Shown here one piece after another: positions 9,549-38,685 of a stretch of 38,685 nucleotides of DNA. The DNA lies in IMG/VR virus record IMGVR_UViG_3300021365_000041, positions 1 to 38,685 of that record, one strand, 5' to 3'. The notes below the pieces were generated by a model, which was not told where the DNA came from, searched no databases, and saw nothing but the letters and a program-made list of their open reading frames with translations. The first letter of the stretch is position 1; every line of letters begins with the position of its first letter. A program made the translations under genes and the position numbers. Source of the stretch: a virus.

Positions 9549-9556
9549 TATTTATA
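9549..9556 (-). promoter_or_regulatory. T4-type late promoter box (TATAAATA, exact)
   Basis: The minus strand reads exactly TATAAATA, the T4 late consensus recognised by gp55-RNA polymerase. It lies 25 nt upstream of the fibre gene start at 9523, outside any coding region. Confidence 0.75.
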
Positions 9557-10264: not shown

Positions 10265-13200
10265 TTACCCTTGGTCCTTAAGAAACAGTGCCGCAGGAGT
10301 TGTTTGTTCTTGCAACGCAATTCCGTTGCTTGCAGTGCTTGCACCTTGTGCATACATTACCTTGCCAGTGACTATACTAATATCAATTTCGCTGCCACTA
10401 GCCGGAGCAGTAACAAATGTAACTTCAACCTGGGTCGAGTCAACTTGTGTTATTGTATAGTCAGTGTTTGGTGTTTGTAATGTTCCGCCAACACTTACGC
10501 GAACTGATTCGTCAAGCTCGGTGCTATCAATTCCAGTAGGCACAACAATGTTACTGCCAATAAATGTTAATGTACTACCATCGCCGCTATTGGTACTATC
10601 AGTTGTGGTTACTTCTTGGTATTGTGTTGGTAACTGTTCACCAGGTCCGACGTCACTTGCTACTGTGCCAATTGCATGAACACTTGCACCAGTGCCCGCT
10701 GTGCCTCTACGCAATCCACTCACACTGTTGTTACTTGTATTGCGCACTCTGTATGTTACTCGTTCTGCACCTACCATAACCTGACCAAAAATGTTCGAAG
10801 CAAGATTTGGCTCACTAAGTTTTGATACATCTTTGAAGTAAAGGACATCGTCAGTTTGAGCAACTGCTTGTGCAAGTTCTGTGGTATTGCCGTTATTAAG
10901 TCTTAGTAGTTTTTGATTGCCTAGCATATCCTGGAAGATACGGAAGTTCAAACTGTCTGGAACTACATCCATTGTAAACATAGTAACTGCTAGTACATCA
11001 GCGGCACCAAGGATACTACCACTTACTGTAAGAATACTAAGTCCGTCAGTGCCTATGCTTAAATCAAATCCAGCGCCTGCAGAAATCTGATCGCCGTTCA
11101 GTGTCACTGATATACGTCCTGGATCTGTTATCAGTCTGCCCAGTGCAAAGTTGTTGGTATCAATGGTTGATCCAACAGTAAAATCAAATGGCCCGTCATC
11201 GTAATCGCTTTCGTCAAATGCAGTACCTGTGGTAACACCCTGAGTGGTTGGGCCAACAAATACTTTGGTCAATATATCTTGCTGTGCAGTATCATTGTAT
11301 GTGTATACTGTAAATTCTGCAGCCGGGATAGCACCAACACGCAACAACAGATCACTGGTATTAACTATGGTATAATCAGCTTCAGTGGTAACTGCAATTT
11401 TGATATCAGCGCCAGTTGCAGGTAGTGCATCAGTATTGAACTCTACATAACGGTCGCTACTTCCATCCCATGTACTCAGTGTCCAGTCAACTTCTAGGGT
11501 CTTCTGCACATTGTCAACATACACCAATACATCATTGTCAGCAATCAATGACTGGTCTGTCTTGTCAGCAGTTGGAAGATAGTAAGGGCCAAGGCTTGAT
11601 CCATCAGCAGTGTATTCAATTCCTGATGGTGGACGCAGTCTAAACCCGTTGCGTTCAACTTCCATGTTGGCAATGTTTGTGCCTTGTAAACTGTTTGTTA
11701 AAGGATACTGCGAACTGGATCCATCATATGCAAAGTATTGCGCTATTGGAGTGCTCCACGAATACTGTGTTGGCGTTGTTGCACCTAGTGCAACAAAGGT
11801 TACCCAATCAGTTACAAGTGGTTGTGTGGTAAAGGTTACCACAGTTGCAAAACTTCCGCTGGCCGCATAGGTATAGTCTGTGGTGATTTCACCATTGACG
11901 AACACAACCATTTCAACAATTTCACTGTAAGCAACAGTGATAATTTGTGTACTGTTTGATATAGTGTTTCCAACAAAACTTTCTTTGTATAGTTGTGATC
12001 CGCCGCCTATACCCCAAACTGTAAGAGACATTGTGTCACCAATTGATGCACCAGCGTTCACTGTGACTGTTTTGGCTACCCAGTTCACTGTGTAATTACT
12101 TGGTGAGATGTTTTGTGTTACTGTGTCATTAATAACATCAATGCCAACTGGATGAAGCATCAAAGCACTAAAGTTTATAACTGTGCCAATACCAGTGTAT
12201 TCAACATTAATGGTTTTGATATCAAACCCATGTCCATTACTGTTCCAGTCACTGCCTGGGCGAGTATAAACTTTAAGGTCAAGTGTATCAAACTCGCTTC
12301 CAGGAATTAGTTCTTCTGGAGCATGCGAACTGTATGTGTCAATAAACCCGCCGCCTTCGACATTGATGTCAGTAGCTCTAATACCAAGATATGTGTCTGT
12401 AAATGCACTTTCATAGATAGCATCAAGAATACCCGGATCATATGTTGGCAATCCTTCTGGACCAAAGTCAAGGTTATCAAATGGATTGATATCAAAGTTG
12501 CCAACATCAAATCCTGTATTCTGATCAAAGTCTGGACCCTCAACTTGTACGCCAGGATAATCAATTCCTGTCATTACTTGTGCTAGTTCTCTACCTGGAT
12601 CTCTTGGATCCGGAGTGTACAAACCTATTGTTCTGTCAGCACCGTCTAATGTGTTAGGATCAACTTTCGTGTAGTTGTCAGGATCAAACGCTGTACCACT
12701 TGTAAAGTTAGCAGTAACACTGTATACCTCTGGAAGAGTTACGTCAATTACACCAACTGTTGGGACTGGAAATCTAACCAGTTCTCCAGCAGTATATGCA
12801 GTACTAGCAGTCCAGTCTTTTACTTGACTGGTGTATGTGATTCTATCATACTTGATTGTGGTTGTAATGTCACGCACCAAGTTTGGAGTCAGAACGGCTA
12901 CCGCAGTTGCTCCTGTTCCATTACCGCCTGTTATAGTAAGCGTTGGTGTAGTGGTGTACCCACTACCTGGGGTTACCACTGTGACTCCGACAACATTACC
13001 AGCAGTGTTAACTCGTGCTTCCATTACAGCTTGAGTGGTTGCATCACCGGTTACAACCACTTGTGGTGCAACAGTGTAGCCTGTGCCTCCGGCTATTACA
13101 GTTACACTGGCAACTATTAACTTATAATTGTTAATCCATTGACTGTATGGCCATGCTTGCCAAATTGGTGCAGTACTTGGGAAACTGCTTAATGAGCTTG

Positions 13201-16200
13201 GCTCCTCAATGTTTTCATCTAGTATAGGACTCACAAACCGCTGTCTTAGTTCGTCATAGTACGCCGGCAAGTCAAAGTCTGTTTCGTTACCTAGGTATGT
13301 GTCTTCGCCTTCATATCTTAGATTAAACTCGCGCACCTGCACATGATATGGCTTAACTTCATTGATATATTCACTAACAAAGTCTTGATTATCACGCCTA
13401 AATATTGGATACTCAATCAAATCACGGATTTTGTGGTTAACATCAATCAATGATGTTTTAAACAACCAATCCGGAGCTGCTTGTTCACTCATAATAAATT
13501 CAAATGTTTGTATAAGCAATTCGTTGCGATAGATCAATAAATCAGTTGTAAAGATTTCTTGATTGAGTGCTTTGAGAATCTGACGTGTTTCTGTAGTAGG
13601 TGCCTGATCAAAACGTTGTGCATCAAATACTTCCGTGTCAAATCCAAAACGTCCTATTGTGTAATTCCATATAGTCTCGTCAATAGCAAATGTGCCATCT
13701 TCTAACCAAACTCTAATCCATTCAGCTGATGCTGCATTGTACTGATAGATTTCAACTTTTCCAAAACTATTAGTTTGAACTTTTGCATACTCGCCATTGC
13801 TTACATTCTGCAATGCCAGTAAATCGCTGTATAGTGCTACTTCAACTTCGGGCTTGTCTGACAGATTGTATCTGGTTACACCATCAATGGTAAGTCCTGC
13901 CCAATCAACATAATTCCAATAAAGTTTTGTATCATAGTTTTGTACTCTTGATAGGAGCAGTATTTTTCCTGCTTGTACAGTATAAATTGTCCACAGTCCT
14001 TCATTGGTGCTGTCGCTTTGTACAAGGTAATTGTATCCAACTGGGACTAAACGCAAGTCTTGATAGGTTAGTTCGGCATAGGTTGCGACTCGTTTATCCC
14101 AGGTTCCGCTTGCACTTGTTGGCTCGGGTTCTTCACTGTTTAGCAGTTTAAATGTTTTGCTTTCTGCTGTTGGGAACAGTGCTACGATTTTATTTGCACG
14201 AGTTAAGTAGTTTTCAAGTGCAAGGAACCTATTCACAAATAAACTTTGCCTTGGACGGAAACTTACGCCATATCTGTCAGCAACACCCAGTGTTTCATCT
14301 GGTACCAGGTTGCCTAGTGTATCTTCACCGCAGAAACTGTCAAGGAACTTTCTATAAAGTCCAGCGCCAAGGAAGCTCTTGCTGTCGTCAACAGTGATAA
14401 GATCATATTCAGCATGCACATTATCAGTGTTGGCAATTTTATCAAATTCAACATGTAAAATTGTATCAGTGGCACTGATTAAATCTCTACAGTTGTAGAG
14501 AGCTAATGTGTTTTGTGCAATAGCCGCAATATAGGTAATGCCGCTACTACGAGGATTTGCAATATACTGCTCAATTGCACTTGAGCTCAATGTTTTACCT
14601 ACCGGAACTGCTACATTGCCTTTTACCCAATAATAGTAATAGGTAATAAATGTGCCAGCACTATCAAGCGCACTGCTTACAGTGTAGCTTGTGGTATTGT
14701 ACACTGTTCCATTGCCTGCGTATTGTGCAGGAGGTACTGTATTTTGTGTCCATTCATATACATCTACACTTGATCCATCAAAAAGCTGTCCCCAACGTCT
14801 TGCTTTGTATTCAATGGTGTCTTGATGATAATCAATAAACCTCACAGTTGACAAATCCCACCAAAACTCACCTAAGTAAGTGGAATTCCACTGTGTTCCA
14901 TAGTTGTTGACTGGCCCAGTGTTATACGCTGCAGGATCAATACTGCCAATGTAATTGATGTTTGCTCGAGCTACTCCAAGTATTTTACCTTGTAGTGGAT
15001 CAACAAAGTCAAGATAGTTAGTTACGTTGTTACTGATTTTATTGTATGTAAACACACTGTTAAGCAATGCTGCATCAACAATTGGTTGTTGATTGTAAAT
15101 TGCCTTCCAAGCAGGATCTCTGTTTGCGTTTGTGAGTTGACTAACACGACCAAAGTCGCCTGTGCTATCACCAAGGTCATCATTAGGTGCACCCACTAAC
15201 AAGATACCGTCACTGTAGTTAACGGCTGTTCCAAACCTGTCAAGACTGGCAATGCTGGTATCATATACCTGCTGGCCAAACACAAACTTACCGGTATTTG
15301 TTGCACTTGCATTTGCGGCAAGCAAGAAATCATATGTGTAAACAACACCAGATTCAGCAAGCGGGTCAAGGAAGTTTTGACTCCTGCTGTCAAAATAGGT
15401 GGTACTGCTATCAAATGTGGTTGGTAAAAATGCTGTTGCATCTGGCGACCCAACAACCAGTGTTGTTGCTGTGTTGTCAATGTTTACGCTAGTACCAAAG
15501 TGCCCAAATGCATACACAATTGGCGGCGCAACTGTTTGTGCATATATAATCGGAGTAAGGCCAAGATCAGCAAATGCGCCAGGTGTGCTACCAGGTCCTG
15601 GTAACACTTGCAATTTAATAAATTCTTCTCCAGCAACAACATTTTCTAGAGTAAGTTGTAATTTTCCACTCACTTCAGTTGCAACAACGTTTGGAATATT
15701 AGCAGTTGTAATATCAGTAACAAGACTGGCAACTGTAGTACCTGTCAGTGTTACATAGTAGTTGTTGATTCTAATACTGTCGCCAATTGTAAGCAAAGGA
15801 TTTGCAGTATTGCCTGTGATTGTGCCGTACAGTCTTGCTTGGTTCATCCAGCGTTCAACTGATCCGCCTTCTGGAATAATTGCACTGTCGTTTGGCATGC
15901 CCAAGTACATACTGCAATTTGTAGAACATTGATCAACTGCACTAGCAAAGTTATAACCTGTGCCTGGAGTAGGTGACTGAATAGTTTGCATCAAGCGGAA
16001 TGTATTTGTTTCAATTTCAATGATATCACCAACTTGCAGTACAATCGGGTTGGCAGTTGTACCAATTGTTATAGCACTGCCAACAACACTGTACTGTGAG
16101 TTATTTGCATTGCCTGGTGCTATCAAGTAAGTGCCATTCAGTATAACACCGGGTGTTCCAACTGGCGCATCAGCAACAGTATAAGTTACAATAGTCGCAT

Positions 16201-19200
16201 CAGTAACCTGGAAACGTTGGACACTTCTATCAAAAATGTGTGCTGTCCCAGCAAGTGTGCTTGTGCCAACTGTGTCGTTTGGCGCACCAACAAGAATTTG
16301 TCTGCCGTCTGTTGTTGTTGCAAGACTGTTGCCAAATCTGCCTGCGCCAATAACACTAGCAGGTGCCGAGATAGTTGAAACAAAGTCCCAATGTGTTTGC
16401 GCATTAATAAGAATTTCCGTACCAGTTGCTGGCGCACTTACAAAGGTAATATTAGGAGAACTAAACGTGTAATCATATGTTGGACGCTGCAATACATCGT
16501 TCACATACAATGCAAAGCTGTACTCGTCAGTTGCAGTAAACACGCTACCAATGTCATATACCGTTGTCACGTTATTACCAACAAATTGTTTGCTTTGCAA
16601 TCTAATAATTCTAATAGTATCACCATTGTTTGGTGCTGTTACAAACTGCACTGTCTGTAGGCCGCCGCTTTCTACCAGTGACCAATCAGAACCAGCAACA
16701 GTTGCAAGGTTGTTCTTGGTAACACCAAGTTGTGTTTGTGCTGTTACTAGGTTATTGTCGACCACAATAGTCGGTTCAATTACAAACGTTTTTGTAGTTC
16801 CGTCGCCAACAAAATCTAATCGTTGTGTTTGTACGTCTTCTCTGGTATACGCATACACTTTGTTATCAGCTGGTTCAGAAATATACATCCAGCGTTCGTC
16901 ATTGCTGACTGCAACAGCATAGCCAAACTCGTATGCAATATTTTGTCCAATGAATAGTTGTGTTTGCCTATAGGTGCCGTTGTCACCATTTCTGTTTATT
17001 GCTACGGCATAGCCTTTGCTGCTATTTGATACTGGTGCGCCTGCAACTGCCCAATCATATTGTCCTGATGCCAAGCTGGACCCAAATCCACTAAAGCCAG
17101 TTGCTCCTGGTTTAACAATACTTGTTTCGACATAGTTGCCATCTGCTTTATTGTAAGTGTACACTCCACCTGCGCCACTGTTATGCCCTGGAGCGCCAAC
17201 TAGTGCTCCTTGATTGCGCAATCCTTGGGCAATGGTTGTACCAAAAAGATCGTTGATCACTGGCGTAGCGGCCGAAAGTTCTGTTGGTGTAGCAAACGGA
17301 TTAATTTTTTCTAACACAGCCCAGTTATCGGTGCCGTCATTGTCTACCCATACCTGATTGCCGGCACTGATTACTGTTGCAAAACTTAGATTACCAACAT
17401 CACTTGCTTGTGCAACTCGCACACTTTCAAGTTTGAAACAAACACCGTCACCTGTTAGTGAAGTTGTGTCGCCTGCTAGTGCAAGTGAAACATTTATTTG
17501 TTTTAGTCCTGGCACGCCGTCAACAATATATGCACCGTCAACCCCGTCGTTAAAATACTTTATCACAATCCTGTCATTAACCAACAATCCGTGGTTTACA
17601 TCAAACGAGATTGTGCATGTTCCGTTTAAGTTATCAAATACACTGACCACACTAGCACTAACCAAGTTAGTTCTGTAAATATTCCAGTCATAGCTGTTAG
17701 CTTTGGCTACCCAAATATTGGTTCCAACATCAATGGTTTCAAGATTGTTGATAACAGCGGTTAGATCATTGTAGTCAAAAACTTTTATATCAACATCATC
17801 GTAGTTTACATAACCAGCAGTCGGTAAGCCAAGATCTTCTGGTGTTTGTGTTACTGTTGGCAAGATGTTTTTATTGGTAATCTTATAGCTTTCTTTCCAG
17901 ATATTGTCAACCAACACTGTTTGATTTGCTGGATTGACTTCACCAGGGTCAATTACTGCAATTGTACTTGGATTACTTAATAATTTGCTTTCATCTAGGC
18001 GCAGTTCAAAATAACTTCTGTTTGCATTTGCACCATAGATACCGCGTTGTATTGCCCAGTTCTCGAAGATCTCATATTCTGCCTCTTCTTTTCCAAGATT
18101 TGCACTAGTAAAGATTTCTGCAGCAGTAATAGTGCCTTTGGTTCCCAAGAACTGTCTGTACAATCCAACTTGACTGATGTCATCTAAGTTTAAGTTTTGC
18201 ATATACTGTCTTGGGCGGAAGCCAATAAGTCCAAAACCCAGTAAGTCAGCATCTTGTTCTAAGTTTGCAGTGTTTGCATCATAGTTGTTTCGTATGCTAT
18301 CTGCTTTGGTTGCAAGGTTGGGCAGCAATCCTGTTTGGATTCTTTCATAGTCGCTTCTAATCCAATCAGCAAACACAAATGTTTCACCGGGCGGCAACAG
18401 TCTGGTTGCACTCCAGTATGCGTTTTTGTATTCAACAATCTGCCCTTTGGTGTATGCTACGTTCGGCACCCACTCTTCGATGTTGTCTTGGTTGAGAATA
18501 AATCCTTGTGCATCCAGTGTACCATTCCAGTCAAAGACTGTGTAGCCGTTTATCAACAGTCGTGCTTGACGAGCGGCTGTCTTTGGTTCATAAATCAAAT
18601 CATTGAAGATACTGGTATTATCAAACACAATAATGTGTTCGTAACTGGTAAATCTTGCATTTAGGAAACTAAATGTTTGATTGTCAAGCGCAACCAATTT
18701 CAATTCATTTCCTAGTCTTTCAACAGCAAAGTCTTTGTTCTCCATTGGCCCAAAGTTTTGATTGAGCATAACATCGTTGATGTTTTCTTCGCCTAATCCT
18801 TCAACTACGCTGAATGGTTGACTAAGTGTTATCTGGTTGGCGCCAGGGTTAAGATTGATTAAACTACCGGATGTCCAGCTCTGCCCGACCCAATATAAAA
18901 ACTCTTGAGCCATTTGTCCCCAGTTCAGTATAATTCCATTTTCAGTATTGTCAAATGTCATGCCCTGACTGGTTAGATATGCACCGTAACTGTTTAAGAA
19001 GTCAACTACTGCACTGGTTGTGGTAAATTCATATCCATAAGGAATCTGAACTACAGTTTTGCTGTAATCATTTGCAACTCTTACTGTTTGCCCGCTAACT
19101 GTGATTGTGCTAAAGTTACCATTGGTTAGGCTTTTAAGTATTTCAAAGTAAGGACGATCTTGCGAGTACCCACTTACACTATAACCAGTTGCTGTGCGTT

Positions 19201-22200
19201 GCACAACTACGCTACTCCAAGTTAGATTGTTGAATACAGGATTCTTATACAAGAACAATTGATAGCTTTCATCAGGCAAAAGCAAGCTGCTGTTAAGACT
19301 GTTTGGCGATGACTTCTCAGAGAAGATTTTCAAATAGTTTTGATCGCTAAATGCGCCCATTCTATAACATAGTCTTATGTCCATGTTTGACAATCTGGTT
19401 TCAAGCAAGTCAGTGCTGTCTAGCCCTGTAACTCTATTGTAATCAACAATCCAGTTTATATAACTGTTCTTGATTACGCCGTTGCCGTAGATGTCGATCA
19501 CTGATGGATCAATACGGAATCTGTTGTTGTACAGGTACTGATTGAATTCTGTATTGTATTTCCATAAGTCTCTGTCAGCAAACAGTGAGAAGTAACTTGC
19601 AGGTCTTGTTAATGCCAATAACTCTTGGATAGCAAACGGATAGTAGCTGCTACGTCTCCACACAGTTTCTACAGGGCTCATGTCTCCAGCAGTCCAAGAT
19701 TTCTTGAAACTGCCTTGATCATAACTGCCTACAATTGTGTTAATTGGTGGTAACAGATTGCCTTGACTATCAGTTGGAATACACTGCAACAACTGCGGAC
19801 GTACATAGTCTGGACGAACATAAGGTGCAATTGGATCTGCAACAAGGCCTGCAGCCATATCGTTCCACAATACCAAGTTGCCTGAAGTATACGGAGCTGG
19901 ACCATACTGCGTGTTCCACCAAGTTGGTCTTTCAGTTAGTCCTACCATTTCCCAGGGACGAGTATGCGGCGAATCTGTGTCGTACAATTGGAAGTAGATT
20001 GCTCGCCACCCACCTAACAGTGGAGCACCAGACAATCTGTTCTCGCTTTGACTGTAATTCCATGTAAAGGCATCGTCAACAACGTAAGTTTGATCTTTGT
20101 ACGGCAAGCGCACTGCGCCGTCCCAGGTTAAGAAACTTCTGTTCAATATGTCATTGACTTCTGTTAAACTATAATCAGTTGTGCGGAATTGGCCTGGAAT
20201 TACATCAACACTGCTAATTGGCGGAGTATATCTTTCAGCTGCACCAATTTTGATATTGTTGTATATTCGCTTTTCAAATTCCAGTAACACTGCATTTCTA
20301 TAATCGCCATCTTCATATGCAACAGTTAAACTACCATCGTGTCCTTGAATAACCTGCTGTGGGTCAACATATGTGTTATCCAGGAATTGTTGCGGCAAGT
20401 AAATTTGGTACAATCCCATACTGCTTGGTGTCTGCGGAACATAACTGCCGGCTGTTGATTGGTATTCACGGATGGTGATAATATCATCAATTGCCAGTGT
20501 AACTTCATTGGTATTGATTGTAACTCTTGGCCCATCAGCAGCAACAGTGTACTCATGCCCATCACCGGACAATATAGTTTGTACACCTGTACTCTTTGGT
20601 GTGTGATATACCAATATACCAGCATAGTTGGCATTGAACATATCATAACTGTAAAGTGTGTCAAAAACATTTGTTGTAATTGGTGTTACAGTATACGCAG
20701 TTGTCTCAAACGTGTTGCCTGATGGAATAGTATCTGTGTAATAGAATGGAGAAAATTGATTTTTTCCTTGGTTGAGAGCAAATAATGCTGCATCCAATAT
20801 TTCAGCAGTGCTTTTGCCTTCCCAGTCGTTTCTTGCTACATAATCAAGAATCTGCTCTTTGATTTTGTTATACTCATTGGCATTAAATCTGGCTGCACGG
20901 AAGAAATCAAACTGTCTATCTGATATAAACGGAGTTGTCATTGTTAGTGGTGCGCTTTGTTGTAATATTAGTTCACCGTAAGGAACAACATTGCCAAGGT
21001 CACGCACATTGTTTGCACCATTTATTTCGCCATCAAGATCTTCTAAATTTTCACAGATGCTGCCGTAGTGATTGCGCACTGTACCTAATGTGATGTTAGT
21101 GGTATTTTCATTCATGGCATTTGATTGCAGGTTATCAGGAATAGTATAAAATGCCACACTGCTTGCTTGGTCACTGATTGCTTGTACTTCAATTGAACTG
21201 CCAATTGGAGCTGTTGTACTATCTACAGCAAAGGTAATTTCAGTAACACCGTTGCTGTTAGTAGCATAGCCGTAATATTCAGGAAGAACAAAAGCGCCGT
21301 TAACAAAGACTTTAACCGGAATCAATGATGTATCAGAAATAACTGGTACGTCTAATTCAAGCGGAAGACCGTTATAAACAAAAGAGAAACTTTGTCGTTG
21401 CACATACGTGGAGAAACTGGTTTGCCATCCAAGTAATTTATCAAAGGTTGTTATAGTATTATACTGTCTAATCACGCCTGTGTCAATCTTTGTTGTTACA
21501 CTAACTGTTCCGTTAACGTATACAAATGTATCCACATAGAGATTGTTATCAAACAATATGTCGCCAACATTGGCAATAGTTTGATACTTGAGAGGCTGAT
21601 CAATGATTGAATCTGTAGCTCCAGTACCAATGGCATAGCTAAAAATCTTGGTACCAATAAATGTGGTACTTGGGTACACTGTGTTGTCACCAAAACTGTA
21701 TCCACTGCTATCGTACACATCAAAGAGTGGGGGCTGATTTACGCTGCTTTTTTGCTGTGCTGAAACCCAGGTCGATCCGTCAAACCAATAACTCAATCCT
21801 TGCAACGTTTCGCCAGATGTTACCACTGTTACACTGTTTGTCGCAACATCTGGTGTTGTTAAACTTGCTGGTTGCAAATCAATTACTGGTTCGCTACTGT
21901 CGTCAAACTGTACAAATTTTACAGCATAGATTTTGTTTCTAACTTCTGGATCTGCGTCTTGAGCAAAAATTACTCTTGAGCCATCAATAAAACTGTATCC
22001 ATCAACACTGTAACCAATAGTGCCGTTGATATTAGAAAACGCATCAGTTTCATTGAAGTCAATGATATTAACACTGTTAACAGCTTGTGTACCATAATCA
22101 AACAGCTTTAGATTTTTTCTAAATTCAAGTATCGGTCTTTTGCCGCGGTTGTCATTGTTGATTTCAAGTGCAACGTTGTTGTAGTTTGCAGTAGCAGTAA

Positions 22201-23821
22201 GTGTATCAATATGGAACCATCTGTTACTGCGGCTCCAGGCGTTTTGATCAATGCTAGCTCTACTAATGGTCATATAATCGGGTGTAGTTGGAGCATTTAG
22301 TGTGCTGTCAAAGTTGCCTTCGTCCCAACCTGTGCTGTCAAAAGGCACACTGGCACTAGCGGTATATGTTTCGGGTGTAATAAAGTTTGTAACCAATAGC
22401 AGTTCAATTGAGCCGCCGACACCTTCAACATAGTATTCATTGCCTGCATAACTATCTGGTGTTGTTGCTCCAATAAATCTCACTTTCAGTCCGCTTGTAA
22501 ACACCACCCCATTGGGAGAAGTATAATTTTTATGTCCAAGGATATCAGCAATTATAATACTGGCATCACTTGGCTGATCAACAAGACGTATCACACCAAA
22601 GTTAGTTTCGTCACTTTGGTCTTGGTAATATAGTATATCAAGATTGGCAGTAATAAGAGGCTGACGCTCGAATGTGCCTTCTGCATTTTTATAAAATGTA
22701 ACACCTGCATAATCAGTGCCGTATTCGATTAGTGTTTCTGAAAGATTGGCAATATCTTGTACTTTTGTTAGTTCCATAAATGGACGGGCAGGGTCAGCAT
22801 AGTTAAAGTTAATTCGCCACTGCACATATCTTTCTGCATCAGTTACCAGTGGAGTTCCGCTGTCAAAACCTTCATCAAATCCGCCTGCTTCGTCAATTGG
22901 AGTTTCTATAACCCAACCTAGCTCAGTGTCAGTGGTAAAAATCAGTGTTCTGTTTTGCAAATCAGTAATGCCATCAATACCACCATTGTCAGCTAAGAAA
23001 GTGTCAACGTATTGATTATTAATCTGATTAAACTGTAATGTATCTTCGACTAAATCAGTTGATCCAATATCAGCAAGTGTAAAGAAGAAATTCTGTGCTG
23101 TTGCAGCTGGTATCTTAAATGTCACTGTGCCAACATCATCGCCGTTGTTCTCGACACCAAGTACGTCACGTGAACTCTGATTTGGTTGTTGCGGCAAGAC
23201 TCCACTTGTGCCCGGAACACTTTGAATCCAAAAGTTTTGTCCAAGATTGTTTACATTGAAAGTGTATTCGCCCTGTCGACTGAGCGTGATTGTAGGCAAT
23301 GTTCCTGCTTCTCCGGAGAATGTGTATCCATCTACTGTATCTACAACATCAAAATCGTCAGTGATTGGAATAGGATTTGCAAATACATCAACTGAGTTTG
23401 GTCCTTCGGGTACCCAATAGTACTGTCCAAAGTTAACAAACTTGTCAAAGTCTATCATTGGATCCCATGAATAGTGCTCACTGTCAAACAACCTGTCATG
23501 ACGTGTTACGTTTGCACCTTGTAATTCTAAACTGTCAATGATTCCTGGGTAGGTAATTGCATTGCTTACAGTACTGGTATTTGGTTTAAGTTGAACAACA
23601 CCAGGCTCAAGCTGATAGTTGGTTCTATTTTCAGTTGCTTCAAGCACATAGTTGTCATTGGGATTAACTCCTTGTCCAACTTTACGTCCAATATAACCTT
23701 CAGTGGGTTTTAGTGTTGGATTCTGTGTAAGCTGGTCAAGTGTACTCCGCAACAACTGTTTGTTGGTAGCAGTTTGAAAGATTTCAGGAAGAAAATCTTC
23801 AGAACGAATTCTATTGGCCAT
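10265..23821 (-). CDS. Giant virion structural protein (4518 aa), baseplate/tail-fibre type
   Basis: One uninterrupted 13.6-kb reading frame follows gp6 in the position held by gp7/gp8 in T4. The N-terminus includes FDKFVNFGQYYWVPEGPNS (near 124-142), followed by many beta-rich modules. Recurrent modules of the form 'vfVNG...p..dYt....itF..aP..G..I' occur near residues 810-880, 2335-2480, 3950-4150 and 4417-4485. Seven FG...GAP repeats lie at about 2190-2890. Near 2960-3040 is GEFWWDLSTVRFIDYHQDT, and near 3470 FVSEYINEVKPYHVQVREF. Two GG/PGSGYT..P repeats occur near 3570-3640. Close to the C-terminus GLRRGTAGTG with a following His resembles fibre 'RG...H' domains. No enzyme motif was seen. 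It is probably a long, trimeric or wedge-associated fibre; the exact role is unknown. It starts 4 nt after gp6 with CGGAG upstream. Confidence 0.85.
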   Translation of the reverse strand: MANRIRSEDFLPEIFQTATNKQLLRSTLDQLTQNPTLKPTEGYIGRKVGQGVNPNDNYVLEATENRTNYQLEPGVVQLKPNTSTVSNAITYPGIIDSLELQGANVTRHDRLFDSEHYSWDPMIDFDKFVNFGQYYWVPEGPNSVDVFANPIPITDDFDVVDTVDGYTFSGEAGTLPTITLSRQGEYTFNVNNLGQNFWIQSVPGTSGVLPQQPNQSSRDVLGVENNGDDVGTVTFKIPAATAQNFFFTLADIGSTDLVEDTLQFNQINNQYVDTFLADNGGIDGITDLQNRTLIFTTDTELGWVIETPIDEAGGFDEGFDSGTPLVTDAERYVQWRINFNYADPARPFMELTKVQDIANLSETLIEYGTDYAGVTFYKNAEGTFERQPLITANLDILYYQDQSDETNFGVIRLVDQPSDASIIIADILGHKNYTSPNGVVFTSGLKVRFIGATTPDSYAGNEYYVEGVGGSIELLLVTNFITPETYTASASVPFDSTGWDEGNFDSTLNAPTTPDYMTISRASIDQNAWSRSNRWFHIDTLTATANYNNVALEINNDNRGKRPILEFRKNLKLFDYGTQAVNSVNIIDFNETDAFSNINGTIGYSVDGYSFIDGSRVIFAQDADPEVRNKIYAVKFVQFDDSSEPVIDLQPASLTTPDVATNSVTVVTSGETLQGLSYWFDGSTWVSAQQKSSVNQPPLFDVYDSSGYSFGDNTVYPSTTFIGTKIFSYAIGTGATDSIIDQPLKYQTIANVGDILFDNNLYVDTFVYVNGTVSVTTKIDTGVIRQYNTITTFDKLLGWQTSFSTYVQRQSFSFVYNGLPLELDVPVISDTSLIPVKVFVNGAFVLPEYYGYATNSNGVTEITFAVDSTTAPIGSSIEVQAISDQASSVAFYTIPDNLQSNAMNENTTNITLGTVRNHYGSICENLEDLDGEINGANNVRDLGNVVPYGELILQQSAPLTMTTPFISDRQFDFFRAARFNANEYNKIKEQILDYVARNDWEGKSTAEILDAALFALNQGKNQFSPFYYTDTIPSGNTFETTAYTVTPITTNVFDTLYSYDMFNANYAGILVYHTPKSTGVQTILSGDGHEYTVAADGPRVTINTNEVTLAIDDIITIREYQSTAGSYVPQTPSSMGLYQIYLPQQFLDNTYVDPQQVIQGHDGSLTVAYEDGDYRNAVLLEFEKRIYNNIKIGAAERYTPPISSVDVIPGQFRTTDYSLTEVNDILNRSFLTWDGAVRLPYKDQTYVVDDAFTWNYSQSENRLSGAPLLGGWRAIYFQLYDTDSPHTRPWEMVGLTERPTWWNTQYGPAPYTSGNLVLWNDMAAGLVADPIAPYVRPDYVRPQLLQCIPTDSQGNLLPPINTIVGSYDQGSFKKSWTAGDMSPVETVWRRSSYYPFAIQELLALTRPASYFSLFADRDLWKYNTEFNQYLYNNRFRIDPSVIDIYGNGVIKNSYINWIVDYNRVTGLDSTDLLETRLSNMDIRLCYRMGAFSDQNYLKIFSEKSSPNSLNSSLLLPDESYQLFLYKNPVFNNLTWSSVVVQRTATGYSVSGYSQDRPYFEILKSLTNGNFSTITVSGQTVRVANDYSKTVVQIPYGYEFTTTSAVVDFLNSYGAYLTSQGMTFDNTENGIILNWGQMAQEFLYWVGQSWTSGSLINLNPGANQITLSQPFSVVEGLGEENINDVMLNQNFGPMENKDFAVERLGNELKLVALDNQTFSFLNARFTSYEHIIVFDNTSIFNDLIYEPKTAARQARLLINGYTVFDWNGTLDAQGFILNQDNIEEWVPNVAYTKGQIVEYKNAYWSATRLLPPGETFVFADWIRSDYERIQTGLLPNLATKADSIRNNYDANTANLEQDADLLGFGLIGFRPRQYMQNLNLDDISQVGLYRQFLGTKGTITAAEIFTSANLGKEEAEYEIFENWAIQRGIYGANANRSYFELRLDESKLLSNPSTIAVIDPGEVNPANQTVLVDNIWKESYKITNKNILPTVTQTPEDLGLPTAGYVNYDDVDIKVFDYNDLTAVINNLETIDVGTNIWVAKANSYDWNIYRTNLVSASVVSVFDNLNGTCTISFDVNHGLLVNDRIVIKYFNDGVDGAYIVDGVPGLKQINVSLALAGDTTSLTGDGVCFKLESVRVAQASDVGNLSFATVISAGNQVWVDNDGTDNWAVLEKINPFATPTELSAATPVINDLFGTTIAQGLRNQGALVGAPGHNSGAGGVYTYNKADGNYVETSIVKPGATGFSGFGSSLASGQYDWAVAGAPVSNSSKGYAVAINRNGDNGTYRQTQLFIGQNIAYEFGYAVAVSNDERWMYISEPADNKVYAYTREDVQTQRLDFVGDGTTKTFVIEPTIVVDNNLVTAQTQLGVTKNNLATVAGSDWSLVESGGLQTVQFVTAPNNGDTIRIIRLQSKQFVGNNVTTVYDIGSVFTATDEYSFALYVNDVLQRPTYDYTFSSPNITFVSAPATGTEILINAQTHWDFVSTISAPASVIGAGRFGNSLATTTDGRQILVGAPNDTVGTSTLAGTAHIFDRSVQRFQVTDATIVTYTVADAPVGTPGVILNGTYLIAPGNANNSQYSVVGSAITIGTTANPIVLQVGDIIEIETNTFRLMQTIQSPTPGTGYNFASAVDQCSTNCSMYLGMPNDSAIIPEGGSVERWMNQARLYGTITGNTANPLLTIGDSIRINNYYVTLTGTTVASLVTDITTANIPNVVATEVSGKLQLTLENVVAGEEFIKLQVLPGPGSTPGAFADLGLTPIIYAQTVAPPIVYAFGHFGTSVNIDNTATTLVVGSPDATAFLPTTFDSSTTYFDSRSQNFLDPLAESGVVYTYDFLLAANASATNTGKFVFGQQVYDTSIASLDRFGTAVNYSDGILLVGAPNDDLGDSTGDFGRVSQLTNANRDPAWKAIYNQQPIVDAALLNSVFTYNKISNNVTNYLDFVDPLQGKILGVARANINYIGSIDPAAYNTGPVNNYGTQWNSTYLGEFWWDLSTVRFIDYHQDTIEYKARRWGQLFDGSSVDVYEWTQNTVPPAQYAGNGTVYNTTSYTVSSALDSAGTFITYYYYWVKGNVAVPVGKTLSSSAIEQYIANPRSSGITYIAAIAQNTLALYNCRDLISATDTILHVEFDKIANTDNVHAEYDLITVDDSKSFLGAGLYRKFLDSFCGEDTLGNLVPDETLGVADRYGVSFRPRQSLFVNRFLALENYLTRANKIVALFPTAESKTFKLLNSEEPEPTSASGTWDKRVATYAELTYQDLRLVPVGYNYLVQSDSTNEGLWTIYTVQAGKILLLSRVQNYDTKLYWNYVDWAGLTIDGVTRYNLSDKPEVEVALYSDLLALQNVSNGEYAKVQTNSFGKVEIYQYNAASAEWIRVWLEDGTFAIDETIWNYTIGRFGFDTEVFDAQRFDQAPTTETRQILKALNQEIFTTDLLIYRNELLIQTFEFIMSEQAAPDWLFKTSLIDVNHKIRDLIEYPIFRRDNQDFVSEYINEVKPYHVQVREFNLRYEGEDTYLGNETDFDLPAYYDELRQRFVSPILDENIEEPSSLSSFPSTAPIWQAWPYSQWINNYKLIVASVTVIAGGTGYTVAPQVVVTGDATTQAVMEARVNTAGNVVGVTVVTPGSGYTTTPTLTITGGNGTGATAVAVLTPNLVRDITTTIKYDRITYTSQVKDWTASTAYTAGELVRFPVPTVGVIDVTLPEVYSVTANFTSGTAFDPDNYTKVDPNTLDGADRTIGLYTPDPRDPGRELAQVMTGIDYPGVQVEGPDFDQNTGFDVGNFDINPFDNLDFGPEGLPTYDPGILDAIYESAFTDTYLGIRATDINVEGGGFIDTYSSHAPEELIPGSEFDTLDLKVYTRPGSDWNSNGHGFDIKTINVEYTGIGTVINFSALMLHPVGIDVINDTVTQNISPSNYTVNWVAKTVTVNAGASIGDTMSLTVWGIGGGSQLYKESFVGNTISNSTQIITVAYSEIVEMVVFVNGEITTDYTYAASGSFATVVTFTTQPLVTDWVTFVALGATTPTQYSWSTPIAQYFAYDGSSSQYPLTNSLQGTNIANMEVERNGFRLRPPSGIEYTADGSSLGPYYLPTADKTDQSLIADNDVLVYVDNVQKTLEVDWTLSTWDGSSDRYVEFNTDALPATGADIKIAVTTEADYTIVNTSDLLLRVGAIPAAEFTVYTYNDTAQQDILTKVFVGPTTQGVTTGTAFDESDYDDGPFDFTVGSTIDTNNFALGRLITDPGRISVTLNGDQISAGAGFDLSIGTDGLSILTVSGSILGAADVLAVTMFTMDVVPDSLNFRIFQDMLGNQKLLRLNNGNTTELAQAVAQTDDVLYFKDVSKLSEPNLASNIFGQVMVGAERVTYRVRNTSNNSVSGLRRGTAGTGASVHAIGTVASDVGPGEQLPTQYQEVTTTDSTNSGDGSTLTFIGSNIVVPTGIDSTELDESVRVSVGGTLQTPNTDYTITQVDSTQVEVTFVTAPASGSEIDISIVTGKVMYAQGASTASNGIALQEQTTPAALFLKDQG
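15165..17250 (-). repeat. Seven FG-GAP type repeats inside the giant protein (probable beta-propeller)
   Basis: Reading along the protein, seven segments begin with F-[GA]-x-[ASTV] and end in GAP or a close variant: FGTT..LVGAP, FGSS..AVAGAP, FGYA..MYISEP, FGNS..ILVGAP, FASA..MYLGMP, FGTS..LVVGSP and FGTA..ILLVGAP. Seven is the count expected for an integrin-alpha-like seven-bladed propeller. Spacing is uneven: extra beta modules sit between repeats 3 and 4, 4 and 5, and 5 and 6. The DxDxDG calcium loop of integrins is not obvious. Confidence 0.7.
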
Positions 23822-34701: not shown

Positions 34702-34729
34702 TTGACAACCCCTGTGTGTAGTGTATAAT
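34702..34729 (+). promoter_or_regulatory. Consensus sigma-70 promoter for gp55
   Basis: TTGACA at 34702-34707 and TATAAT at 34724-34729, both perfect, separated by 16 nt. The expected start of transcription is about 34736, leaving a short leader with AAGGAG (34743-34748) 6 nt before the gp55 ATG. It would be read by unmodified host RNA polymerase. Confidence 0.88.
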
Positions 34730-34754: not shown

Positions 34755-35648
34755 ATGCCACCAGTTAAAAAGCCTAAAAGAGTTAACTATCTTAACAACA
34801 GAGATATCCTCAAAGAAATTCACAAAAGCAAAGCAACTTTTTGCTCATTCCAAGAACCACATCAAGCACAGTATGATATTATTGTACCCAGTGTAGACAA
34901 GATCAACCAGCGTACCGTTGCAGAAGCAAGACGAAACAAAGCCGATCGTATCAAGAGAGAGACTGGCGAAATTATTGATCCAACAAAACTGAACAATCAA
35001 GAGCTGGTGTTTCGTGTTACCTGCTGGGATCATATCCCAATGGTGCCAAAGAAACTGACCAAAGCACAAGAAAAGAAAAAAAGCAAACTAGAAGAAATTC
35101 TAGAAATGGATGATGTGGACTATGACGATGATGGTCTACAGGAACTCATGGTTGAAGTTGAACAGGATCTCAACTATATAAAGTTAAACTTTCCGCCATT
35201 CTATCATTACATGATTGATGACAACAAAGTTCCTTATCTAGTAGGCAAAAGTCACTGGGTTGGGGGCTTTGAAAACGGTTATTTCTCAAAAGATCACGGC
35301 AAGATGACCGACAAGTTAGCACACATGTTTATCAAACTGTGTGAACGCTATGCTACTCGTTCAAACTGGCGTGGCTATACCTACAATGAAGAAATGCGCG
35401 GCCAAGCACTGTTACAGTTGAGCCAAATTGGATTGCAGTTTGACGAATCAAAAAGTCAAAATCCATTTGCATATTACACAGCGGCTATTACAAATAGCTT
35501 TACCAGAGTGCTAAACATCGAAAAGAAGAATCAGAACATTCGTGATGATATTCTTGAGCAAAACGGGTTGAATCCAAGTTGGACAAGACAGTTTAACAAC
35601 TCACCAGATGCAAAAAAACTGATAGCTGAGCCAACAACTAAAAAATAA
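34755..35648 (+). CDS. gp55: Late-transcription sigma factor gp55, with large insertion (297 aa)
   Basis: The N-terminus VNYLNNRDILKEIHKSK (10-26) matches the opening of T4 gp55 (NYVNNKELLQAI). The C-terminal part LCERYATRSNWRGYTYNEEM (195-214) followed by LQFDESKSQNPFAYYTAAIT matches the T4 sigma region 2-like segment around GYTQSWKQEM...FDETKYKNPHAY. Between them lie about 155 residues not found in T4 gp55 (185 aa), including a Lys-rich then acidic helix (KKKSKLEEILEMDDVDYDDD) and SHWVGGFENGYFSKDHGK. The T4 C-terminal clamp-binding motif (acidic-Leu-x-Phe-Leu) is not seen; the protein ends in AEPTTKK. It directs RNA polymerase to late TATAAATA promoters. A consensus host promoter and AAGGAG precede it. 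Confidence 0.88.
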   Translation: MPPVKKPKRVNYLNNRDILKEIHKSKATFCSFQEPHQAQYDIIVPSVDKINQRTVAEARRNKADRIKRETGEIIDPTKLNNQELVFRVTCWDHIPMVPKKLTKAQEKKKSKLEEILEMDDVDYDDDGLQELMVEVEQDLNYIKLNFPPFYHYMIDDNKVPYLVGKSHWVGGFENGYFSKDHGKMTDKLAHMFIKLCERYATRSNWRGYTYNEEMRGQALLQLSQIGLQFDESKSQNPFAYYTAAITNSFTRVLNIEKKNQNIRDDILEQNGLNPSWTRQFNNSPDAKKLIAEPTTKK

Positions 35649-35657
35649 GGGACGGTA

Positions 35658-36572
35658 GTGGATTTATTAAAAATTCCAGCGACCAGTATTGCATTCCAAG
35701 GCGGTGCATACGGGCAGTATGTTAAGTGGCTGATGTATACACTGTTGGTCAACGGCCCCGTTGTGGCTCCTTTTAAAAACTCCACCAGCCATGGACCTTA
35801 CATTAACGATGCACTAGTTGATCAATTTGTAGCCAACGATCTAGTAACCTTGGATCGATTGACACAACCCAATACACTGAAGTTATCAGCTATACACCCA
35901 GTGGTTGACGGTCAGGATACTGATTTTATTGAACAAGTTGATAAAATTTCTCAATTAGTGGATCGGGTGCTTATTCCTTACATCGATCACAGTACCTATC
36001 TACTTGGCATACACAACTATCTGTACAAGATATGGGATGATATCTGGGCTGGACCACTTGAATATGTGGATCGAGAGGATCTTGCCAGGGGCTGGGAAGT
36101 AGATACATCACAGCCTTTGGATACTGTTTCTCGATGGATAGTGCGAGAACACCACAGTTTGAACATTTTCAACAGTTGGGAAAGCCAGTGCAGTTGGTTT
36201 GCACCCACACAGATAAGTAACGCTAACTGTAAATTTGTGTTTATTAGTGATTTGTTTTATAACTTTTTGCCTACCATTGAAAGTATCAGGCAATTTTTAG
36301 GTGTAGAATGGATTCGTGATCCAGCTACATTGTTGCCTTACCATAAAACCAATGTTAGCAATCAAAAATACAAAAACCAAGATCCAATAGCAAAACAGAT
36401 ATTGCAATCAGTTGCAGATGATACAGATTTTGCTTGGAACGCCAACAGTATAACCCTGTACACTGAAGCATATGTACAAAGAGCTTTACAACAGCAAGGT
36501 ATTATGCTACAATGTAATGGACTAAATGACTTTCCCACATCAACTAAAACATTAATTGAGGTATTTGAATGA
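35658..36572 (+). CDS. Sulfotransferase-like protein (304 aa)
   Basis: The N-terminus SIAFQGGAYGQYVKWLMYTLL (10-30) looks like a strand, glycine-rich loop and helix, as in the PAPS-binding region of sulfotransferases. The segment CKFVFISDLFYNF...IESIRQFLGVEW (191-218) resembles their C-terminal region, where 'FLGVEW' is common. Neither match is decisive, and the classic PKSGTTW loop is absent, so the protein may be another P-loop-type transferase or unrelated. The start is GTG at 35658, 9 nt after the gp55 stop, with AAGGGA as Shine-Dalgarno. The stop overlaps the gp47 start as ATGA, so the three genes form one transcript. A sulfation or similar modification role would fit the other modifying enzymes in the window, but is only inference. 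Confidence 0.45.
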   Translation: MDLLKIPATSIAFQGGAYGQYVKWLMYTLLVNGPVVAPFKNSTSHGPYINDALVDQFVANDLVTLDRLTQPNTLKLSAIHPVVDGQDTDFIEQVDKISQLVDRVLIPYIDHSTYLLGIHNYLYKIWDDIWAGPLEYVDREDLARGWEVDTSQPLDTVSRWIVREHHSLNIFNSWESQCSWFAPTQISNANCKFVFISDLFYNFLPTIESIRQFLGVEWIRDPATLLPYHKTNVSNQKYKNQDPIAKQILQSVADDTDFAWNANSITLYTEAYVQRALQQQGIMLQCNGLNDFPTSTKTLIEVFE

Positions 36573-37585
36573 GTGGACTGTTTAAGAAAGCCTTGGTTTT
36601 CACTGATATTCACTTTGGCATGAAAAGCAACAGCATCATGCACAATCAGGACTGTGAACAGTTTGTAGATTGGGCTGTGGAACAAGGCAAACTGCATGGA
36701 TGCGAAACCTGTATCTTTATGGGAGATTGGCATCATCATAGAGCAAGCCTCAGCTTGCTAACCATGAATCACAGTTTACGAGCACTGGAAAAACTCAGTG
36801 CAGGATTTGATATTACCTACTTTATCACTGGCAACCACGACTTGTACTATCGTGATAAGCGTGATATTTACAGTTTTGAGTGGGCCAAGCACATTCCAAA
36901 CTTGCACATTTGCAACGATTGGTTTGAGCAAGATGATGTTATACTGTGTCCATGGTTAGTTGGTGATGACCACAAGCGAATTAAAACTGCCAGTGCCAAG
37001 TACATGTTTGGACACTTTGAACTGCCGCACTTTAAAATGAATGCCATGGTAGAAATGCCGGATCACGGAGAGATCAAAAGCGAACACTTCCAGCAGTACG
37101 GCGAAGTGTTTTCAGGACACTTTCATTTGCGGCAACAGAAAAACAACATCAACTACATTGGCAATGCATTTCCGCACAACTTCTCAGATGCTGGTGACAA
37201 CCAACGTGGCGTTATGATCATGGACTGGGCAGGTACCAAGGAATATATTGCTTGGCCAAAGCAACCACTTTACAGTGTTATGAACCTAAGCGATGTTATT
37301 GACTATGCCGATACCAAACTCAAGCCCAATATGCATGTGCGTGTTAACTTGGATATTGAGATCTCCTATGAAGAAGCAAACTATATCAAAGAACAGTTTA
37401 TCACCAAGTATAATCTGCGTGAGATGGCACTTATACCAAACAAACGCAGTGCATTAGAAGAAGAAATGCAACCAGGTGACATCAAGTTTGAAAGTGTTGA
37501 TCAAATTGTAACTGAACAGATCATAAACATTGATAGCGAATTCTACGATAACAAATTGTTATTAGAAATCTACAGGAGTCTGTAG
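36569..37585 (+). CDS. gp47: Recombination endonuclease subunit gp47 (SbcD/Mre11-like, 338 aa)
   Basis: All metallophosphoesterase motifs are present in order: TDIHFG (near 12-17), MGDWHHHR (near 50-57), ITGNHDLYY (near 87-95), FGHFE (near 147-151) and SGHFHLRQ (near 182-189). This is the nuclease half of the T4 gp46/gp47 complex, homologous to SbcCD and Mre11-Rad50, which resects DNA ends for recombination-dependent replication and degrades host DNA. Length matches T4 gp47 (339 aa). The ATG overlaps the upstream stop. In T4 the gp46 ATPase gene lies next to gp47; here the following gene is a radical SAM protein and gp46 is not in the window. Confidence 0.93.
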   Translation: MSGLFKKALVFTDIHFGMKSNSIMHNQDCEQFVDWAVEQGKLHGCETCIFMGDWHHHRASLSLLTMNHSLRALEKLSAGFDITYFITGNHDLYYRDKRDIYSFEWAKHIPNLHICNDWFEQDDVILCPWLVGDDHKRIKTASAKYMFGHFELPHFKMNAMVEMPDHGEIKSEHFQQYGEVFSGHFHLRQQKNNINYIGNAFPHNFSDAGDNQRGVMIMDWAGTKEYIAWPKQPLYSVMNLSDVIDYADTKLKPNMHVRVNLDIEISYEEANYIKEQFITKYNLREMALIPNKRSALEEEMQPGDIKFESVDQIVTEQIINIDSEFYDNKLLLEIYRSL

Positions 37586-37586
37586 T

Positions 37587-38685
37587 TTGGTTGCAGATAA
37601 ACTTTCTCTGCTGAGTACAGAAATCAAAGTTGTTGGTGTTTTACAATTTGATGACAGTCTCAATGAGCTTAGTAAACAACTAACACTGCTGAGAAAAGAA
37701 GAATTTGCACCAAATGAACGAATTGTTATTGTGCAAGAACATCCGGATACATATCCCTACATTGATGGGGATGGCAAACAGTTAATTGAAATACAAAAAC
37801 TAGTCAATAGAGTAGATATTGGAAATTGCTTTGTACTGATATTGACTGCAAACACGAATATTGCCACAGAAATTGCCAGTGTACATCAAGATCACAGCAG
37901 TGATAGTACACTGTTTGATTGGTGTGTATATCCTGGTGAATATGAACCAGTGGTTCCAAAGTACAAAAATACAGCATGCACACATCTCTGGAATCATCTG
38001 TATATAGGCACTGACAATAATGTATTGCCATGCTGTGTAGCTGATCATAGATATCCTGTTGGCAGTATCAATACGCAAACTGTTGATGAGATACTCGACT
38101 CTGAAAACGCTCAAAATATCAGACAGTGGATGATAGACGGTTATCGCACAAAGTCGTGCAGTCTGTGTTACAAAAGTGAAGACAACAATATAAAAAGCAG
38201 ACGTCGCCCTTTTGAGCCTAAAAGTGTTGCAAGAGAAAAAATCACATACTTGGATGTTAGACTTAACAACATCTGCAACTTTAAATGCCGTATGTGCAGT
38301 GAATACTTTAGCAGTAGCATTCAGCAAGAAACCATTGAGATGTTTGGCAAGGATGCAGTACTGGGTTATGAAAAAATCGATCTCACGTCTACCAATCGCA
38401 AAACAAGACAATCGAATTTAGAAAAATTACTACCATATGTCTCTGAGGATCTTGAAAAAATATACTTTGCAGGTGGTGAGCCATTGATCACCGAAGAGCA
38501 TTATGCTATCCTGGATCAGTTGATTGCAAACAACAATGTCAATATCAAAATGAGCTACAACACCAATCTTTCAAAATTATCATACAAAAATCACAACATC
38601 TTTGATTATTGGAAACAGTTTTCTGACGTTTCGGTAGGAGCAAGCATTGACGGAAGCGGAAGTGTTGCTGAATACATGCGCCACG
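37587..38685 (+). CDS. Radical SAM protein with N-terminal SPASM/twitch-like domain (3' part outside window)
   Basis: 366 codons are visible. The start is a TTG at 37587, with AGGAG about 9 nt upstream inside the end of gp47; no ATG start is available near. The first 115 residues are an unrecognised alpha/beta domain. A SPASM-like region follows: C131 (CTHLWNHLYIG), C149-C150 (LPCC), PVGSI, then C191 and C194 (SCSLCYKSED). The radical SAM motif CNFKCRMC (C230, C234, C237) and AGGEPL (295-300) come after it, so the cluster-binding region precedes the barrel rather than following it. The sequence differs clearly from the two paralogs at 675-3479. Probably a peptide- or protein-modifying enzyme; the substrate is unknown. 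Confidence 0.85.
   Translation, partial: MVADKLSLLSTEIKVVGVLQFDDSLNELSKQLTLLRKEEFAPNERIVIVQEHPDTYPYIDGDGKQLIEIQKLVNRVDIGNCFVLILTANTNIATEIASVHQDHSSDSTLFDWCVYPGEYEPVVPKYKNTACTHLWNHLYIGTDNNVLPCCVADHRYPVGSINTQTVDEILDSENAQNIRQWMIDGYRTKSCSLCYKSEDNNIKSRRRPFEPKSVAREKITYLDVRLNNICNFKCRMCSEYFSSSIQQETIEMFGKDAVLGYEKIDLTSTNRKTRQSNLEKLLPYVSEDLEKIYFAGGEPLITEEHYAILDQLIANNNVNIKMSYNTNLSKLSYKNHNIFDYWKQFSDVSVGASIDGSGSVAEYMRH

Follow-up and report, generated by a model that had tools for sequence, protein, structure and literature searches.

A twitch-domain radical SAM enzyme gene with an additional N-terminal domain behind gp47 in large T4-like phages

What is a radical SAM (rSAM) enzyme gene doing directly behind gp47, in what an earlier note on this DNA had called the place usually taken by gp46? 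The gene lies at the right end of a virus record of 38,685 bases from an uncultured T4-like phage, referred to here in its whole length as the window, whose first and last genes both run off the record ends. The plus-strand block at this end contains the following features.

34702-34729, plus strand: putative sigma-70-type promoter, TTGACA-16-TATAAT, upstream of the gp55-like gene, gp47 and the enzyme gene
34755-35648, plus strand: gp55-like late sigma factor gene (phrog_12791, E 4.5e-75)
35658-36572, plus strand: gene for a 304-aa protein, inserted between the sigma gene and gp47 (30% identity to L009:2105-3034)
36569-37585, plus strand: gp47, SbcD/Mre11-like nuclease subunit (phrog_100, E 6.1e-60)
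37570-37585, plus strand: 6-bp hairpin enclosing the Shine-Dalgarno sequence AGGAG (37574-37578) and the gp47 stop codon
37587-38684, plus strand: N-terminal-twitch rSAM (N_Twi_rSAM) gene with an extra N-terminal domain, open at the contig end (ORF, NF033640, selection)
37587-37970, plus strand: N-terminal domain (NTD), residues 1-128, predicted alpha/beta
37977-38168, plus strand: SPASM/twitch auxiliary-cluster domain, residues 131-194, with C131, C149, C150, C191 and C194 (PF13186)
38265-38684, plus strand: first part of the radical SAM core, from residue 227 (PF04055, 30.6 bits against 29.5)
38274-38297, plus strand: CxxxCxxC motif, C230/C234/C237
38472-38483, plus strand: GGEP motif of the radical SAM core

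The gp47 of the window shares 47.3% identity with the PA5oct protein. The 304-aa gene gave no family match of its own with Pfam, NCBIfam or PHROG profiles, and its relative in L009 showed a sub-threshold sulfotransferase match. The earlier note placed the enzyme gene under an early promoter, and the site at 34702-34729 matches the sigma-70 consensus at 12 of 12 positions; the enzyme gene would be co-transcribed from it with the gp55-like sigma gene and gp47. Promoter-like sites in the region (14 in total) were not above shuffled sequences (mean 12.0, sd 3.2), nor were the two terminator-like matches (mean 3.0). The late-promoter motif TATAAATA occurs once in the window (9549-9556, minus strand) against a chance mean of 1.71, and thus gives no evidence on timing. 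The suggestion in the earlier note that the enzyme may act at a different time from the cassette would fit the promoter position and the strand.

As described in the earlier note, the enzyme gene follows gp47 directly, with a TTG start at 37587 behind the gp47 end at 37585, and its AGGAG ribosome binding site (37574-37578) lies within gp47. Before the contig end 366 codons are visible, the full length in relatives being 500-516. The orthologues in two relatives (L004 and L006) have an ATG start on the last base of gp47, behind an AGGAG- or CGGAG-type site. The hairpin at 37570-37585 raises the possibility of translational coupling between gp47 and the enzyme gene. The enzyme's Shine-Dalgarno site would lie within this hairpin, which by eye is not conserved in L004 or L006.

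Comparison of the window enzyme with NF033640 (N_Twi_rSAM), a family that likewise carries the twitch domain ahead of the radical SAM core, gave 233.1 bits, above the cut-off of 170. The match reaches profile position 251 of 398 in the cut window gene, and nearly the whole profile (positions 2-397) is matched in the relatives from G001, G002 and G003. The model's best stretch covers residues 128-366, leaving uncovered an NTD of about 128 residues; the extra N-terminal domain claimed earlier is thus present, with residues 1-128 lying ahead of the first twitch cysteine C131 where 115 residues had been stated. PF13186 matched at E 3.1e-11 (43.8 bits against a cut-off of 21.5). In an alignment of 12 sequences of diverse family members, the columns of C131, C149, C150, C191, C194, C230, C234 and C237 are invariant, and the CxxxCxxC and GGEP columns are invariant or nearly so.

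At E 0.01 the family profile found a single solved protein, BtrN (PDB 4m7t), a twitch radical SAM dehydrogenase. The match is weak (E 0.0013) and covers the twitch part only, which follows the core in BtrN whereas it precedes the core in the window enzyme. Among 50,697 records, the only ones reached by tblastn, with the window protein and also with two cassette rSAMs, were Vibrio phages K566 and K567, whose rSAMs share 21.7-24.9% identity over the matched parts; for the window protein the match is confined to residues 148-365 and leaves the NTD unmatched.

Comparison with the L006 orthologue revealed differences at codon positions 1, 2 and 3 in 89, 64 and 189 of 364 codons, with pN 0.205 and pS 0.703 for the whole, 0.301 and 0.667 for the NTD, and 0.157 and 0.719 for the core; since pS is near saturation, dN/dS ratios derived from these are only rough. 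This pattern indicates that purifying selection acts on the frame, on NTD and core alike, so that the gene is no frame artefact, one of the two refutations that had been offered. A model of the full-length enzyme was poor (pLDDT 64.1, with the cysteine-bearing stretches below 50). Judged by its sequence, the window gene is a genuine N-terminal-twitch radical SAM enzyme gene.

A search of viral contigs with the window protein gave 66 loci, eight of which (L004-L011) align from residues 1-13 onward, five at 70-71% and three at 52-53% identity. All eight have the gene order sigma, gp47, enzyme, gp46, and in each of these fetched loci gp46 was confirmed by search downstream of the enzyme, either directly or one gene on; in L005 it is cut by the contig end. 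The same search gave no match in the window, where gp46 is invisible because the record ends within the enzyme gene. Looking to the right for gp46, as had been proposed, therefore yields it in the relatives and not in the window itself. A replacement of gp46 by the enzyme was rejected, as gp46 is present downstream in all eight; it is displaced, not substituted, and the enzyme gene is accordingly an insertion between the two nuclease genes. In L010 a second, different N_Twi_rSAM precedes the enzyme and a DUF6071-like gene comes after it, and in L011 a methyltransferase gene follows. Downstream of gp46, several relatives carry rSAM genes of another type (L009 and L167 by Pfam, others by eye). 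The gp46 ORF of L108 (genome G014) has 712 codons against 584-589 in most relatives, and was matched in three pieces.

The order and strand of sigma, gp47 and gp46 are shared with phages PA5oct, RaK2 and Vibrio phage 2.275.O, taking gp46 from the relatives of the window; in the last of these, whose gene names are generic, genes were assigned by position and length. In these three phages gp46 lies directly behind gp47 with no enzyme between. The junction was surveyed in 19 gp47 genes, in 18 of which gp46 is within reach, the window being the exception. The window-type enzyme occupies 5 of the 18 junctions; one (G014) holds a different NTD-rSAM and an unnamed gene, and one (G027) an NTD on a non-rSAM protein. 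Two (G022, G024) contain other genes, namely a sulfotransferase and a small gene, or an AMP-binding and TctC pair, two (G036, Phosso) contain small ORFs, and seven (G015, G018, G007, G013, PA5oct, RaK2 and Vibrio phage 2.275.O) are empty. The junction shows a core operon repeatedly accepting metabolic cargo without loss of gp46.

Identical enzyme proteins occur in L004, L005 and L008, and another is shared by L006 and L007, so the eight loci add five lineages to that of the window. In a quick tree, 96 rSAM proteins were compared, taken from the window, from 25 related loci and from 14 selected others; it placed the six gp47/gp46 enzymes in one clade with SH-aLRT 100; only SH-aLRT was computed, the midpoint root serves for drawing alone, and a long-branch warning applies (L093, L108 and L091 among the NTD rows). 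Because the six carrier lineages group in one clade, a recent insertion into a single isolate, the other refutation that had been offered, was rejected. In the gp47 tree, where several branches are weak, the carriers are intermixed with the close non-carriers G015, G022 and G027, a pattern that fits an old gain followed by later losses or replacements.

The structure prediction proposed for the N-terminal region was run, and yielded an alpha/beta fold, modelled with confidence, that has no clear counterpart among known structures. Modelled with 12 sequences, the NTD adopts a beta-alpha-beta-alpha-beta-alpha-beta arrangement (pLDDT 84.7, pTM 0.78). No fold match was found at E 0.001, the best Foldseek values being E 0.037 (PDB) and 0.045 (BFVD); VIA, which re-aligns Foldseek candidates only, gave a best Z of 5.3 (rmsd 3.9, 96 aligned). 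Weak matches of this kind do not establish the fold as new. At E 0.01, Pfam, NCBIfam and PHROG gave nothing confined to residues 1-128, and TIGR04304 reaches into the NTD at residues 75-196 with 22 bits against 300. The best match of an NTD profile to PDB sequences, ADP-ribosylation factors at E 0.058, was not believed.

Searches recovered 69 ORFs with the NTD, all 69 with an rSAM core; they comprise 27 different protein strings, a few of which are truncated copies of a single gene. One later locus, which brings the total to 70 ORFs and 28 distinct strings, has the NTD (E 5.2e-14) joined to another kind of C-terminal domain: in L167:2591-3784 (minus strand) it is fused to an unnamed domain, here called CT. 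From the loci examined, 44 distinct full-length relatives of the CT domain were gathered. Among the 22 members scanned, no Pfam family matched more than one at E 0.1 and no PHROG matched at E 0.01, and the family gave one chance-like match to PDB (E 0.055). Alignment of the NTD with the N-terminal half of the CT family scored 18.9 by hhalign, with 1 of 30 column shuffles higher (20.7) and a reversed control at 13.4. This result is no more than suggestive of kinship, and of a weak one, between the NTD and that half of the companion family, even though a natural NTD-CT protein occurs. Three CT matches fall in bacterial-titled loci (L217, L238, L241); these may be contigs of phages that were assigned to bacterial bins.

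On the minus strand, opposite to the enzyme as the earlier note stated, the window carries an rSAM cassette downstream of virion and tail-fibre-like genes.

2043-3479, minus strand: cassette rSAM-1 (N_Twi_rSAM; NF033640 E 1.6e-92; ortholog group in the tree)
675-2027, minus strand: cassette rSAM-2 (N_Twi_rSAM; NF033640 E 2.5e-85; ortholog group in the tree)
2-637, minus strand: cut N-terminal part of a B12-binding protein (PF02310 E 8.6e-5, below cut-off)

The enzyme is thus the third twitch rSAM gene, as had been counted, and the truncated gene at 2-637 is probably a fourth, of B12 type, given its likeness by eye to the B12-rSAM of L083 and L087. Further along the minus strand, the first 1,000 residues of a 4,518-aa ORF (10265-23821) match the virion structural family phrog_10938 (E 1.5e-94). 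The same cassette order recurs in L084-L087 (genomes G001, G002, G014 and G015), together with rSAM-3, -4 and -5 and other genes interspersed. Genes for a SAM synthetase, an NAD-dependent epimerase, a carbamoyltransferase and a PNP_UDP_1 nucleosidase, the last similar by eye to MTA/SAH nucleosidase, are also present in the L084 cassette; the nucleosidase and the synthetase lie at L084:11804-12370 and 14847-15947. Unnamed cassette genes, glycosyltransferase-like by eye only, gave no Pfam match (six scanned) and no PDB match (three profiles). In the 328-kb record G003, one of the phage records that have the enzyme gene, N_Twi_rSAM matches occur at 14 places, 11 of them over the cut-off.

In the available parts of the reports, pelagimyophages carry rSAM cassettes in a tail-fibre island with glycosyltransferases (PMC7029224), one T4-like marine genome has 12 rSAM genes (PMC5332604), and the Lake Baikal phage VP_139 combines an rSAM gene with a methionine adenosyltransferase and an MTA/SAH nucleosidase, which that report interprets as PQQ and SAM-cycle genes in a phage of a methylotroph (PMC7678222). 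As far as these excerpts extend, the published cassettes resemble those of the present phages in having several to 12 rSAM genes per phage (PMC7029224, PMC5332604, PMC7678222). For Klebsiella phages, the accessible text mentions a predicted peptide-modifying radical SAM gene and, separately, gp46 and gp47 homologues, and does not give their order (PMC9960720). No description of an rSAM gene between gp47 and gp46, or of the NTD, was found in the available parts of PMC5332604, PMC7678222, PMC9301287 and PMC7029224, within a mostly non-subscription literature. Nor did the literature searched give an account of the products of large phage rSAM sets, such as the 11 in G003.

The NTD also occurs within the cassettes. 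In 9 of 11 distinct cassettes fetched via NTD searches it is on rSAM-3; in the remaining two (L120, L122) it is on rSAM-4, and rSAM-3 is without it. The rSAM-3 of L084 and L085 lacks the NTD, which in those genomes lies between gp47 and gp46. A rule of one NTD per cassette is not claimed, the loci having been selected by NTD and G014 having it both in the cassette and at gp47/gp46. NTD-rSAM genes also lie close to clamp-loader genes, identified with PHROGs in G003 (L110) and by eye in L121 and L123, and a short form follows a uvsX-like gene in G003 (L111). The genes adjoining the L110 and L111 copies are clamp-loader, co-chaperonin-like and uvsX/gp32-like. On the rSAM tree, the NTD label changes at least four times by starred branches and seven times overall. 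These frequencies are biased because most loci were found through the NTD itself. In the examined stretches of 58 loci (L012-L069) the NTD is absent; seven of them (L015, L017, L021, L022, L026, L033, L047) have at least three to four N_Twi_rSAM genes in tandem, with no NTD in the examined stretches. Among 78 bacterial-titled loci, from the best 80 of 219 matches, the best NTD value was E 0.04, and among the loci examined the domain was seen only in phages. Tied as it is to known operons, the NTD may serve to mark which rSAM members act together, and identifying what one NTD-rSAM acts on could make sense of a broad class of aquatic-phage chemistry.

We propose, with moderate confidence, that the gene is cargo at the gp47-gp46 junction of one lineage of large T4-like phages and encodes a working rSAM modification enzyme, with the NTD used for docking and a glycan or a surface or tail component as substrate class. 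The enzyme is predicted from its sequence to be very probably catalytically active. By analogy with its family, the cluster on C230/C234/C237 would cleave SAM, generating a 5'-deoxyadenosyl radical that would abstract a hydrogen atom from the substrate. In dehydrogenating twitch enzymes such as BtrN the auxiliary cluster is an electron acceptor, and the cluster on C131/C149/C150/C191/C194 may take up an electron here, making the modification an oxidising one. The NTD would be a docking module, bringing the enzyme to its substrate or partner. The likeliest substrates would be glycans or surface or tail components common to the tail-side rSAM cassette, not gp46 and gp47 themselves, and the enzyme probably works alongside the cassette in one programme of envelope or tail modification; the choice of envelope or tail as the target is the weakest step of the proposal.

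Counted in favour of this proposal are the family assignment with its motifs and conserved cysteines, the selection on NTD and core, gp46 downstream in all eight loci, the varied cargo at the 18 junctions, the single clade of six lineages and the BtrN match, as well as the NTD on cassette paralogues, beside clamp-loader and uvsX-like genes and on one non-rSAM protein, and the gene content of the L084 cassette together with the published tail-fibre-island cassettes, as far as the available part of that report describes them (PMC7029224). Counted against it are the by-eye character of the cassette's glycosyltransferase-like genes, the weak kinship of the NTD to the CT family, the poor full-length model, and the close relatives G015 and G022, which lack the enzyme at the gp47-gp46 junction. 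A wider caution on function applies, and the N_Twi_rSAM family is not tied to glycans, because its bacterial members are mostly single among unrelated neighbours: 55 of 78 bacterial loci have one such rSAM (a crude motif count over the stretch examined, from the best 80 of 219 matches), and in six of seven inspected the gene is solitary with unrelated neighbours.

An unlikely alternative, though one to be taken seriously, is a peptide or protein maturase acting on a protein of the phage or its host (from the tail, the virion or the replication machinery), to which the NTD would bind. Twitch/SPASM enzymes frequently act on peptides, and the NTD-rSAM genes adjoin protein-coding operons of several kinds, at gp47/gp46, the clamp loader, a uvsX-like gene and the tail side, which would suit such a role, whereas the occurrence of the same NTD on a protein without an rSAM motif speaks against it.

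Hypermodification of DNA bases, by an enzyme made early with the replication and recombination proteins, appears improbable. It would be consistent with the consensus sigma-70 promoter ahead of the operon and with the sister NTD-rSAM genes near clamp-loader and uvsX/gp32-like genes in G003. Thymidine hypermodification can involve radical SAM steps, and cytosine modification in phages can involve carbamoyltransferases, which lends the idea some further appeal. However, the carbamoyltransferase found here belongs to the tail-side cassette, and the related rSAM arrays in the examined stretches of L012-L069 are without the NTD. Rather doubtful, too, is a broader reading in which the NTD would be a phage-invented docking domain shuttled among paralogous radical and other enzymes, placing them in the gp47/gp46, clamp-loader and uvsX operons and at the tail, for a genome-wide rSAM modification of the phage's own replication products or proteins.

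A functional partnership of the enzyme with the gp46/gp47 nuclease, such as modification of DNA ends or of that nuclease, is very unlikely. The enzyme's location between the two subunit genes, retained in one clade, and the three different NTD proteins found at the junction across relatives could point that way, but 7 of the 18 junctions are empty and four more hold unrelated genes or small ORFs, and G015 and G022 manage without the enzyme. Least credible of all is a passenger gene without present use, or a frame artefact: the changing contents of the junction mark it as a cargo site, but pN lies well under pS for the NTD as well as for the core, and no cluster cysteine is lost.
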